Part shown: positions 44,253 to 47,767 of the stretch, in pieces
Position numbering within the stretch: position 1 is the first letter of the stretch
Layout: every line of letters starts with the position of its first letter
Origin: Paracoccaceae bacterium
GTDB lineage: Bacteria > Pseudomonadota > Alphaproteobacteria > Rhodobacterales > Rhodobacteraceae
Direction of reading: 5' to 3'
Length of the DNA stretch: 49,811 nucleotides
Assembly (NCBI GenBank): GCA_013042605.1
Contig: JABDPT010000131.1
Coordinates: 1 to 49,811 of the forward strand
Made by a program: the position numbers and the translations under genes
The notes under the pieces: generated by a model
What the model saw: the letters and a program-made list of their open reading frames with translations, nothing else
What the model was told of the DNA's origin: nothing
The model's database searches: none

Positions 44253-45583
44253 ATGGCAGGGCAGGTTCTTGTGGCGGACGGGGTGGCAACGTCGCGGATT
44301 CTCCTCCGGGTGATCCTTGCCGCCGCCCATTACCATGTGAGATTGGCCGCCGATGCCACCGCCGCAAAGCGACTAATCGACACCACGCAACCCGATTTCA
44401 TCTTGCTTGGCGACACGCTTGAGGATGGGCCGTCCGACGACCTTCTCCGCTACCTGCGCAACCGACCCGATACCCGCAACGTTCCGGTCATTCTGCTGTC
44501 GGATCGCGCAACATCAGAGCGGCGGATCGCGGCGTTGAGCGCCGGGGCCGACGAGTTGATGCGTAAACCGGTTGGCGAAGCGGCCCTTCTGGCCCGGATG
44601 CGCAGCTTGTTGCGGGCGCATGAGACCACCGACGCCCTTGATCAGCGGCAAGCCGCAGTGCACGACCTCGGATTTGCCGAAACGAAAGCCGCCTTTGCTC
44701 CCCCGGCCAAGATCGCCCTGATCGCCGACGACACGGCACGCGCAGCGCGCTGGGCCATAATGACGTGCTCGCAAGGGCACAGCAGGGGTCGGTCGCCGAT
44801 GTCTATGTGATCGAGGCCTCGGTCAGCGACCCGGGCGCGGGCCTGCGCCTTTTGACAGAGCTGCGCGCCCGTCCCCAAAGCCGCCATGCCGCCATTGTCA
44901 TCGTGCATGACGTGACCGACACCGAAACTGCCGTGAACGCGCTGGATCTTGGCGCGAGCGACCTTCTCGAGCTTGGGTTTCACCCACAGGAAATGGCGCT
45001 TCGCCTTACGATCCAGCTTGACCGGAAACGCGATGCCGACCGGTTGCGGGAAACCGTGGCCGAGGGGCTGCGCCTTGCCGTTCTCGACCCGCTGACCGGG
45101 CTGTTCAATCGGCGCTACGCCATGGCTCATATCGCCCGCACCGCCGAACGCGCCGCGCAGACCGGAAAACCCTATGCCGTCGTCTTGGCGGATATCGACC
45201 TTTTCAAGTCCGTCAATGATCGGTTTGGTCATCCTGCGGGCGACGCCGTGATTGCCCATGTCGCCCAAAGCCTGCGCAACCATTTGCGCCCGATCGACAT
45301 GGTGTCGCGCATCGGTGGTGAAGAGTTCATGATCGTGATACCCGAAACCAGCCCCGCGCGGGCCGAGGCCACGGCCAAACGGCTCTGCGCGGCGGTGCGG
45401 GCGAGATCCGCCCCGGTTGCCGGGGCAATGGGCGGTTTGCCGGTCACAGTATCGCTTGGGGTATCCATGGGCGCGCCAGGCAAGCGGCCCGAAAACGCCA
45501 TCGACCGCGCCGACCGCGCGCTTTATGCGGCCAAAGAGGCCGGGCGCGACAAGGTTTCGGTCGACAGCATGAACGCGGCCTAG
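44253..45583 (+). pseudogene. pleD: PleD-type diguanylate cyclase response regulator, interrupted by a one-base frameshift
   Basis: Two frames (44253-44810 and 44765-45583) give one protein of about 443 residues if one G is restored in the GGG run at 44752-44754; the joined sequence reads ARAARW-GHNDVLARAQQG. Receiver 1 has an altered acidic pocket (VLVADGVATSR) and reads FILLGDTLEDG where a phosphorylatable ILLD is expected. Its Lys is kept (MRKPVG). Receiver 2 lacks an obvious phosphoacceptor, as in other PleD proteins. The GGDEF domain is intact: LDPLTGLFNRRYAMAHI, GGEEF, and an inhibitory RPID five residues before it. It would make cyclic di-GMP if the frame were whole. Confidence 0.8.
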
Positions 45584-46077
45584 CGGTTGGTCACGCGGCG
45601 CAGCGATCTGTCTAGCCGCTCGGCATAGGCGCGACGCTCGTCCACGTTCATCTCGCCTAGCCGGTCGAGCAGTATTCTTTCGCCGATCAACTGACGCTCG
45701 ATCCCGATATCGCGCTGTTCGGCCAGCAATCCGCGCACGGTCTCGGCGTCGAACGTGTCGGCCCGGATAGCGGCAAGAAGGGCCTCGAACCGCACGCGAA
45801 GTTCCTCGCGGTTCTGCCGCAGCGACGACGCCTCACTTCGTAGGGCGCGGCCAAGGGCCCGCCGATCCTGCGGCTCAAGCGCCATCACAAACGGCAAAGG
45901 CCCAAGATCACGCGCCGCTCCAATCTGCGCGCCGGGCGCGCCCCGGTCGCGATCCCGCGTCGCAACGGAGCCCATCACGATGCCCACCACCAGAAGGTTC
46001 AGGGCGAGTGAGACGACAAGCGTCACGCGGATCCAAAGCGGGGTGCGCGTGACCGGGGTTGGTTGCGTGTCGGTCAT
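45580..46077 (-). CDS. CpxP/CnrX-like periplasmic heavy-metal-sensor-type protein
   Basis: A 165-residue protein with one N-terminal membrane anchor (LWIRVTLVVSLALNLLVVGI, then VMGSVA). The periplasmic helical domain is rich in Arg/Glu (ALEPQDRRALGRALRSEASS, LRQNREELRVRFEALLAAIR, FDAETVRGLLAEQRDIGIER). This matches the metal_resist/CpxP-like pattern of antiparallel long helices. No histidine metal site is evident, so metal binding is unproven. It is the last gene of the EF-hand/sigma/anti-sigma group, starting four bases after the probable anti-sigma stop. Its own stop overlaps the convergent pleD stop by four bases (45580-45583). Confidence 0.8.
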   Translation of the reverse strand: MTDTQPTPVTRTPLWIRVTLVVSLALNLLVVGIVMGSVATRDRDRGAPGAQIGAARDLGPLPFVMALEPQDRRALGRALRSEASSLRQNREELRVRFEALLAAIRADTFDAETVRGLLAEQRDIGIERQLIGERILLDRLGEMNVDERRAYAERLDRSLRRVTNR

Positions 46078-46081
46078 GTTC

Positions 46082-46441
46082 TTACCCCTCTTCCGCGATG
46101 AAATCGCCGTAGCCGGGAACCAGATCGACCAGTTCGAAGGCCGTCGTCTCGGACGAGAGCGGCACGAAATTGGTCGTCAGGTCCGGCACCGCCACGCCGA
46201 TCCAGATACCGGCGGCTGTCGCCGTGGCAAGCCCGGCCACGCTTGGCCAGCCGCCAATAGCCTCCAGCATCCGTCGCAAGGGCGAAGCGGGCGCCGACCG
46301 GATCGCGGGGGCCGCGCGTTCGGCAGTTACCGCCGCCGCGTCCGCAGCAAGCCGGGCGAGAAAGGCGTCGTTGGGCTCGGCCCGTTCGGTACGGGCGGCC
46401 TCGAAGAATGGCTCCAGCGGATCTTTGTCAGTCATAGTCAT
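46082..46441 (-). CDS. Probable anti-sigma factor (single-span membrane protein)
   Basis: A 119-residue protein. The cytosolic N-terminal part is helical (DPLEPFFEAARTERAEPNDA, FLARLAADAAAVTAE). It is followed by one hydrophobic segment (WPSVAGLATATAAGIWIGVA) and a short periplasmic tail ending DLVPGYGDFIAEEG. No HxxxCxxC zinc motif is visible. It starts inside the end of the sigma gene (overlap 46428-46441; a second ATG lies at 46435). Position and topology make it the likely membrane anti-sigma partner, which is inference. I recall that similar rhodobacterial proteins are often mis-named dihydroorotate dehydrogenase; nothing here supports that. Confidence 0.65.
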   Translation of the reverse strand: MTMTDKDPLEPFFEAARTERAEPNDAFLARLAADAAAVTAERAAPAIRSAPASPLRRMLEAIGGWPSVAGLATATAAGIWIGVAVPDLTTNFVPLSSETTAFELVDLVPGYGDFIAEEG

Positions 46442-47015
46442 ATCCCAACTCTTCGCGCCGGTCCGACAAGATGCGCACCAACGCCCGTTTTCCCCTGGCG
46501 GTCAGACTTTCCACCGCCTCTGTCCCGATGTCCATGATCCCGGCGATCTCGGGATTGGACAGCCCCTCGATATGCCGCAGCACGACCGCCTGTCGCTGCC
46601 TCTCCGGCAGGGTTTCCAGCGCGGTCTGCAAGGCCGCCGCACGATCCGTTTGAATCAGCGTGGCCTCGATACTGGCGCGCCCGTCATCGGGTTCGACCAC
46701 CGCGTCGATTTCGACCGACCGCCCTGATTTTCGCAAACGGTCGGTGCAGAGGTTCACCGTCACGCGGTAAAGCCATGTCGTGACCTTGGCTTCCCCCTGC
46801 CGCCAGTCCGGCGCGATGCGCCACAGGCGCAGCATCGCCTCTTGCACCACGTCCTCGGCCTCGGCCCGGTCGCCCAGAACCCGCGCGGCATAGCCAAGAA
46901 CCCGGGGCGTCAGACGCATCACCAGCGCAGACGCAGCGGCGTTGTCGCCATTTCCGTAGGCAACAAGCAAGGCTTCGTCACTGGCGTCGCTCAAGGCGTC
47001 GAAGGGCATGGTCAT
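46428..47015 (-). CDS. ECF-type RNA polymerase sigma factor
   Basis: A 195-residue two-domain sigma factor. Sigma2 is ALVMRLTPRVLGYAARVLGD followed by RAEAEDVVQEAMLRLWR, with region 2.4-like KVTTWLYRVTVNLCTDRLRK. Sigma4 is LETLPERQRQAVVLRHIEGL followed by SNPEIAGIMDIGTEAVESLT. Sigma1 and sigma3 are absent, as in ECF factors. It directs polymerase to a small stress or envelope regulon. It is encoded between an EF-hand protein and a probable anti-sigma, suggesting it responds to a periplasmic or membrane signal sensed by the neighbouring proteins. A second in-frame ATG two codons later is possible. Confidence 0.92.
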   Translation of the reverse strand: MTMPFDALSDASDEALLVAYGNGDNAAASALVMRLTPRVLGYAARVLGDRAEAEDVVQEAMLRLWRIAPDWRQGEAKVTTWLYRVTVNLCTDRLRKSGRSVEIDAVVEPDDGRASIEATLIQTDRAAALQTALETLPERQRQAVVLRHIEGLSNPEIAGIMDIGTEAVESLTARGKRALVRILSDRREELGYDYD

Positions 47016-47063
47016 TGTCCGTCAGCGGTATCCTGTCACGCCGCGCGCGGCAATCCTGGCGAT

Positions 47064-47086
47064 GGGGCCGGCAATGCACCGGCCCC
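47064..47086 (-). terminator. Hairpin between the EF-hand gene and the sigma gene
   Basis: A perfect 8-bp stem, GGGGCCGG at 47064-47071 with CCGGCCCC at 47079-47086, and a seven-base loop. It lies ten bases past the EF-hand gene stop on the minus strand. No U-run follows, so it may attenuate rather than stop transcription. That would let the EF-hand protein be made in excess of the sigma factor, which is inference. Confidence 0.5.
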
Positions 47087-47096
47087 TGTTGCCGCT

Positions 47097-47570
47097 TTAC
47101 TGGTTACGCGGGCCACCGCGCGGACCACGCTCTTTGCGCATATCCGCCCGGCGCATTTTCATGGCCTCGAATTCCTCTTCCGAGACAGCGCCGTCACCAT
47201 CCGTATCAAGGCGTGCGATCATGTTGCCACGGTCACCCCGGGGCCCAAGCTCGTCGGGTGCGATCAGGCCATCGCCATTGGCATCCATCCGTTCGATCAT
47301 GCGCTCGGCCCGGGGGCCCATCTCGCGCTGCATGCTGGCCGCGATCTCTTCGGCAGACAAAAATCCGTCGCCGTCGGTGTCGCGTTCGGCAAAGCGGGTG
47401 GCGCGGAAGGCGTCGAATTCGGCCTGCGTCACCTTTCCGTCGCCATCGGCGTCAAAGGTTTCAAAGGATACGGGGCCACCTTGCGGCCCGCGTGCTTCTG
47501 CCATCGGCACCACCAGCGCGGTGCTGGCAAGGGCGGCGATGAGAAGGGTCATTACTGTTTTCGTTTTCAT
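47097..47570 (-). CDS. Exported EF-hand calcium-binding protein
   Basis: A 157-residue protein with a signal peptide (MKTKTVMTLLIAALASTALV, then VPMAEA with likely cleavage after AEA) and four EF-hand loops. They are at about 40-51 (DADGDGKVTQAE), 64-75 (DTDGDGFLSAEE), 96-107 (DANGDGLIAPDE) and 122-133 (DTDGDGAVSEEE). All have the 1-3-5-12 acidic ligands, so calcium binding in the periplasm is well supported. The tail is Arg/Gly-rich (RKERGPRGGPRNQ). It is followed on the same strand by the ECF sigma cluster after an 81-base gap with a hairpin. Divergent neighbour: the DUF983 gene. Confidence 0.87.
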   Translation of the reverse strand: MKTKTVMTLLIAALASTALVVPMAEARGPQGGPVSFETFDADGDGKVTQAEFDAFRATRFAERDTDGDGFLSAEEIAASMQREMGPRAERMIERMDANGDGLIAPDELGPRGDRGNMIARLDTDGDGAVSEEEFEAMKMRRADMRKERGPRGGPRNQ

Positions 47571-47767
47571 TGGTTCTCTCCGGTTCAAAAGGCGTCTTGC
47601 CCCAAGCAGGTCTGTCATTCGCCCGCTTTATGAACATCAAACGCACCAGCCGCCCGATTCCGTCGCGCCCGGCGAAAGTTTTTCGCGACATCGCGCCGCA
47701 AGGACATTCTGCGGGGTTCCGTAGACAGGGGGTTGGCGGGCATCAAAGACACATCGAGCGTAGTTAG

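Follow-up and report, generated by a model that had tools for sequence, protein, structure and literature searches.

A conserved four-gene unit around an ECF sigma factor

The window analyzed here is a stretch of 49,811 nucleotides (nt) from the genome of a Paracoccaceae bacterium (contig JABDPT010000131.1). An original prediction, made from the sequence alone, had singled out four same-strand genes for an exported protein with four EF-hands, an extracytoplasmic function (ECF) sigma factor, a membrane protein with a single span, and an anchored CpxP-like helical protein, and had proposed that they form one sensing unit. This inventory proved to be right, as did the order and the coordinates of the genes. 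All four lie on the minus strand in the sequence just named, and the one-span and sigma genes share 14 nt (Table 1).

To define the conservation of the unit, we sampled 120 genomes of the window's family. Of these, 118 contained a match to the sigma family NF009176, which exceeded the cut-off of that family in 85. The resulting set comprised 103 family loci, with the window excluded: one per genome with a strong match plus two paralogues (L104 and L105); 16 genomes with only weak sigma matches were left out. Iterative profiles revealed the EF-hand gene upstream of the sigma gene at 98 loci, the one-span gene downstream at 100, a PF13801-like gene at 98, and all four genes at 93. A stricter count based on start positions gave all three sigma partners at 83 of 105 loci. 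Thus, the four genes are indeed conserved as one unit. That unrelated genes have come to lie side by side by chance is refuted by this conservation and by the one shared promoter described below, and we give this explanation virtually no weight.

Across the class, a sigma profile built from 29 sequences (A1) matched 125 of 289 genomes at an E value of 1e-25 or better. From the listed matches, 86 class loci were taken best-first, with few skipped. The one-span gene was present at 81 of these, the PF13801 gene at 78, both at 76, the EF-hand gene at 44, and the complete set at 39. The pairing of EF-hand and sigma genes, which had been proposed as the point on which the unit could fail, was therefore retained at 98/103 family and 44/86 class loci, and the unit stands. 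The core of the module is the sigma factor, the one-span protein, and the PF13801 protein; the EF-hand gene is frequent and dispensable.

Table 1. Features of the four-gene unit, its promoter, and the RND (resistance-nodulation-division) adaptor gene of the same genome
Feature	Position	Strand	Basis and remarks
Candidate autoregulated ECF promoter, GCGACGGAA-N14-CGTT	47640..47666	-	-35 at 47658-47666, -10 at 47640-47643; exact match in the window
EF-hand gene, gene 1 of the unit; CaBP-like, 157 residues, exported	47097..47570	-	PF00036, E 3.4e-20, four stretches matched; four canonical loops; adjacent to the sigma gene at 98/103 family loci
EF-hand loop 1, DADGDGKVTQAE	47418..47453	-	
EF-hand loop 2, DTDGDGFLSAEE	47346..47381	-	
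EF-hand loop 3, DANGDGLIAPDE	47250..47285	-	
EF-hand loop 4, DTDGDGAVSEEE	47172..47207	-	
ECF sigma factor, 195 residues, NF009176/PRK12524 family	46428..47015	-	NCBIfam NF009176, 312.8 bits (cut-off 264)
Candidate one-span anti-sigma factor, 119 residues, without zinc motif	46082..46441	-	conserved position, GxxxG transmembrane helix, profile match
Probable transmembrane helix of the one-span protein, invariant G78xxxG82	46181..46249	-	alignment A2; extent judged by eye
PF13801 (CpxP/Spy/CnrX-like) helical protein, 165 residues, membrane-anchored, periplasmic, candidate sensor	45580..46077	-	PF13801, E 8.9e-15; PDB profile matches
Probable membrane anchor at the N-terminus of the PF13801 protein (SLALN...GxxxG)	45967..46035	-	alignment A4, column counts; extent judged by eye
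RND adaptor orthologue, own genome	C219:14476-15945	-	preceded by ACGACGGAA-N14-CGTA, which differs at one position from the searched core and ends 82 nt before the gene

The exported EF-hand protein

All four loops of the EF-hand protein follow the pattern D-x-[DN]-x-D-G-x6 with Glu at position 12 and hence carry the canonical ligands. Read by eye, the N-terminus resembles a Sec signal peptide. A search with PF13499 across the 3.54 Mb of the genome gave a single match, namely the EF-hand gene of the unit. Loops 1 and 2 are separated by just 12 residues. The NCBIfam model for lanmodulin (LanM) scored 41.7 bits (E 1.1e-10), well short of its cut-off of 135. The protein may bind lanthanides.

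The one-span protein as a candidate anti-sigma factor

The gene of a membrane anti-sigma factor usually lies right after that of its sigma factor, which is the place of the one-span gene. The protein matched no Pfam or NCBIfam family. The HxxxCxxC motif of the Class I zinc anti-sigma domain (ASDI) occurred in none of 173 homologues, which agrees with the predicted lack of a zinc motif; HxxxCxxC is not universal among ASDI members. A GxxxG motif was almost invariant (169/173 homologues), and the cytoplasmic helices were conserved in the same alignment (A2). Family proteins and the Caulobacter-type proteins of the class are related (hhalign probability 97.5%, E 7e-12), and the family member at L098 has a long N-terminus of the class type. 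A profile search of PDB chains returned no CnrY; the proteins are short and divergent. From its position, topology, and conservation, we consider the one-span protein a candidate anti-sigma factor.

The anchored PF13801 protein

The window protein matched PF13801 (Metal_resist) with 55.4 bits against a gathering cut-off of 29.2, and 44 of the 45 members of alignment A4 did so at an E value of 0.01 or better. A PDB search with the profile of 45 homologues returned CpxP as the best match (E 3.3e-5), along with Spy, NccX, and CnrX (the last deposited as CnrR). CpxP and Spy, of the Cpx and Bae envelope-stress systems, are soluble periplasmic proteins, and CpxP acts together with a histidine kinase, whereas the protein of the unit is membrane-anchored and encoded beside a sigma factor. 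NccX and CnrX serve as sensors in ECF switches of Cupriavidus. Within the anchor helix, S23 (99%), N27 (100%), and G32 (91%) are conserved. Together with the near-invariant GxxxG of the one-span protein, these residues suggest that the two proteins pair through their membrane helices.

The metal ligands of CnrX are several His residues. In 173 homologues plus the window protein, no alignment column contained His or Cys at more than 20%, and the window protein itself has neither residue. A CnrX-type metal site is therefore unlikely, and the earlier idea that the CpxP-like protein reads a metal load was not borne out.

One conserved promoter precedes the EF-hand gene

When motifs upstream of the EF-hand gene were enumerated without bias, GACGG-N16-CGTT emerged in 67 of 99 family loci, compared with at most 7 in shuffled sequences. 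The refined motif GCGACGGAA-N14-CGTT scored at least 13 in 90 of the 99 loci (shuffles, 0-8), with a spacer of 14 in 89 of these 90. The autoregulated promoter expected upstream of position 47570 is thus present as a conserved motif; in the window, 69 nt separate it from the EF-hand start codon. No conserved promoter was detected between the EF-hand and sigma genes of the family loci, where the best motif occurred in 13/99 against 8-10 in shuffled sequences. With the Caulobacter loci included, the motif stood before the EF-hand gene in 33 of the 48 class loci that have one and before the sigma gene in 1 of 48; at class loci lacking an EF-hand gene, it stood before the sigma gene in 11 of 42. 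Since the motif precedes the EF-hand gene and not the sigma gene, the former is probably the first gene of the sigma factor's own autoregulated operon. Upstream of this promoter, at about 47674-47700, lies a partly palindromic element, TTGCG-N9-CGCAA, which is imperfect in the window, occurs in 29/99 family loci, and may belong to the divergent DUF983 gene.

An RND efflux pump as a likely further target

The exact motif was found in 84 of the 120 family genomes, and an RND efflux adaptor recurred among the sites outside the operon. Twenty motif regions that we examined had been chosen partly because their motif began with GCGACGGAAATA or GTAG and were therefore not used as regulon evidence. 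Instead, adaptor orthologues were identified by protein search (92/120 family genomes) and taken by protein rank, and the upstream 180 nt were scored; the query protein itself had originally been found by the motif. A score of at least 12.5 was reached by 38 of the 40 genomes that carry the sigma factor and by none of the 9 that lack it, compared with 12 of 980 shuffles. This threshold was set after the site in the own genome had been seen; at 13.5, the counts were 29/40 and 0/9. Two sigma-lacking genomes (G035 and G058) were dropped, as the adaptor start was not found. Searched with one mismatch, the own genome gave 23 sites compared with 22 for a reversed-pattern control and is uninformative except for the site before the RND adaptor, which is followed by an AcrB-family transporter gene. 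These motif data suggest that the sigma factor also turns on an RND efflux pump.

The gene content recalls CnrYXH, an ECF sigma switch of Cupriavidus (PMC4803752). Both in CnrYXH/NccYXH and here, an ECF sigma gene adjoins genes for a one-span membrane protein and an anchored protein with the CnrX fold, and the likely RND target parallels the control of cnrCBA by CnrYXH. The two differ in gene order (sigma, one-span protein, sensor here; Y-X-H there), in the added EF-hand gene, in the missing conserved His/Cys site of the anchored protein, and in the one-span protein, for which the PDB search showed no similarity to CnrY. The likeness raises the alternative that the anchored protein is a CnrX-type heavy-metal sensor, which binds Ni, Co, Cu, or Zn and frees the sigma factor to induce an RND metal pump. 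The shared gene kinds and pump, the PF13801 assignment with its NccX and CnrX matches, and a similarity of the adaptor to CzcB/NccB are in line with such a sensor. That similarity, however, lies below the cut-off: the adaptor passed the general RND adaptor model TIGR01730 only and missed the metal-specific cut-offs. Together with the His/Cys counts given above, this renders a heavy-metal sensor improbable.

Several other genes were linked to the motif. It precedes an rpoH-like gene (sigma-32, named by eye) at L253, L281, and L282, a possible cascade to the heat shock response, and a further EF-hand gene at L275. A TolC-like gene (by family match) and cytochrome b561-like genes (by eye) were also seen. 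Genes resembling a secreted alpha/beta-hydrolase and DUF1800 proteins (by eye) follow the motif at L278, L338, and L339 and at L263, L348, and L350, and were motif-linked in Caulobacter as well as in the family of the window.

Relation to the CaBP-SigV circuit of Caulobacter

The original prediction knew of no well-described system of this composition. This needs correcting, as a paper of May 2026 describes a periplasmic EF-hand protein, CaBP, and the adjacent ECF sigma factor SigV of Caulobacter vibrioides, which influence each other (PMC13171946). Overexpression of CaBP potentiates sigV expression, and the induction of cabp by ethylene glycol tetraacetic acid (EGTA) needs CaBP; the genes of the circuit respond to acid as well as to calcium limitation, and the paper does not name the membrane component that links CaBP to SigV (PMC13171946). 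Among the papers listed in our literature searches, this was the only one in which an EF-hand protein is paired with a neighboring ECF sigma factor. The novelty of the present unit is limited by it.

Using the primer sequences of PMC13171946, we located the corresponding locus in four Caulobacter-group genomes. The order cabp, sigV, one-span gene, PF13801 gene was found in 4 of 4 extended loci. They matched the EF-hand and sigma profiles, the latter (A1) with E values from 1.9e-64 to 2.8e-65. The one-span protein, of about 150 residues, matched the family profile weakly (E 3e-4 to 0.07), and Pfam confirmed the PF13801-like protein for one locus. In 3 of the 4 loci, an exact copy of the motif preceded cabp, and the published cabp promoter, placed by 5' rapid amplification of cDNA ends with -35 GGAAA and -10 CGTTCA (PMC13171946), is similar. 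The two genes after sigV are thus candidates for the missing membrane link between CaBP and SigV. They are most likely CCNA_02836 and CCNA_02835, because two tags lie between sigV (CCNA_02837) and MsrP (CCNA_02834) and two genes occupy this place in the related loci; a literature search for both tags found no other paper mentioning them. Directly after the module in the Caulobacter-group loci lie two genes resembling msrP and msrQ (L206, 3270-4973); CCNA_02834-02833 encode MsrPQ, reported to be controlled by SigF (PMC8224329).

In both the circuit and our unit, the gene for an exported EF-hand protein lies immediately before that of an ECF sigma factor of broadly the same clade, and the promoters are similar. 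They differ in that the paper treats two separate genes whereas we find a four-gene unit behind one conserved promoter, together with a candidate anti-sigma factor, a PF13801 sensor candidate, and a putative RND regulon. The autoregulated ECF26 rpoE1 operon of Sinorhizobium likewise consists of a gene for a secreted protein, then an ECF sigma gene, then a membrane anti-sigma gene, and has a GGAAT-type promoter (PMC3511301; PMC6180224). Its secreted protein is of the 'lipoprotein 15' type, however, and the accessible text describes no PF13801 gene.

A proposed envelope-stress switch and its alternatives

We regard it as fairly likely that the unit is an autoregulated envelope-stress switch on the CnrYXH plan to which an EF-hand gene has been added. 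At rest, the one-span protein would keep the ECF sigma factor at the membrane, and the anchored CpxP/CnrX-like protein would hold the one-span protein through the GxxxG- and Asn-containing membrane helices. Upon an envelope signal, the complex would open and release the sigma factor. To judge from the conserved motifs, the freed sigma factor would transcribe its own operon, with the EF-hand gene first, and the operon of the RND pump, both from promoters of the type GCGACGGAA-N14-CGTT. Depending on its calcium state, the exported EF-hand protein may then feed back on the anchored sensor, as suggested by the co-conservation and the published effect of CaBP on sigV expression. Since the His ligands of CnrX have no counterpart here, the signal is presumably not a metal of the CnrX kind, and the EF-hand protein would be a feedback element or an output. 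Calcium as a signal and the binding of the sigma factor by the one-span protein are what we infer from these data. If the switch operates in this way, the CnrYXH plan serves signals beyond heavy metals.

A number of observations weigh against this proposal. The EF-hand gene is missing at 42 of the 86 class loci, and calcium is therefore not essential to the core switch. The Fisher P value of 2.7e-8 for the adaptor contrast is overstated because relatives are not independent, and among 15 exact motif sites in Caulobacter none preceded an RND adaptor. Pfam shows no recognizable anti-sigma domain in the one-span protein, whose candidate role is drawn from its place, topology, and conservation, and AlphaFold models computed from single sequences were of low quality for the one-span and the anchored protein, with predicted local distance difference test (pLDDT) values of 52 and 47. 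Finally, PMC13171946 reports cabp and sigV to be monocistronic, with the sigV promoter inside cabp, and assigns cabp partly to SigT, on which both genes depend.

The SigT-dependence, along with the lack of an anti-sigma family match, would also suit a sigma factor that is regulated chiefly through its transcription (e.g., by SigT/EcfG), with a one-span protein that is no anti-sigma factor and a membrane pair that serves otherwise. Considering that an overlapping gene follows the sigma gene at 100/103 loci of the family and 81/86 of the class and that its cytoplasmic helices are conserved, we judge this highly improbable. Quite possible, even if we lean against it, is that the EF-hand protein is an output only, i.e., a periplasmic calcium buffer or envelope protector, and that the PF13801 protein alone senses envelope damage, with calcium being no signal. 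CpxP and Spy, the closest relatives of the anchored protein profile, sense misfolded protein. The place of the EF-hand gene as the first one under the sigma promoter, its absence from class loci that mostly keep the rest of the module, and the motif before another EF-hand gene and before rpoH all fit an output. The overexpression effect of CaBP on sigV and the CaBP-dependent induction of cabp by EGTA, in contrast, favor feedback (PMC13171946).

Going further than the envelope-stress switch proposed above, the EF-hand protein might, in its calcium-free or calcium-bound form, bind the anchored protein and thereby set the release of the sigma factor by the anti-sigma factor, which would make the module a calcium-gated switch throughout the class that acts on the RND pump and envelope genes. 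We consider this rather unlikely. If true, the module would read calcium in the periplasm and pass it on to an ECF sigma factor, with all parts named. Little is understood of the way in which bacteria sense periplasmic calcium, and the survey offers two candidates for the link, a promoter motif that goes with the sigma factor, and an RND pump as a likely target.

Neighboring gene

Next to the unit, on the plus strand, a PleD-like response regulator is split across two frames (44253-45583), which reflects either a true frameshift or a fault in the assembly. The first piece (44253-44810) carries the first receiver domain, and the second piece (44765-45583) carries the second receiver and the GGDEF domain.

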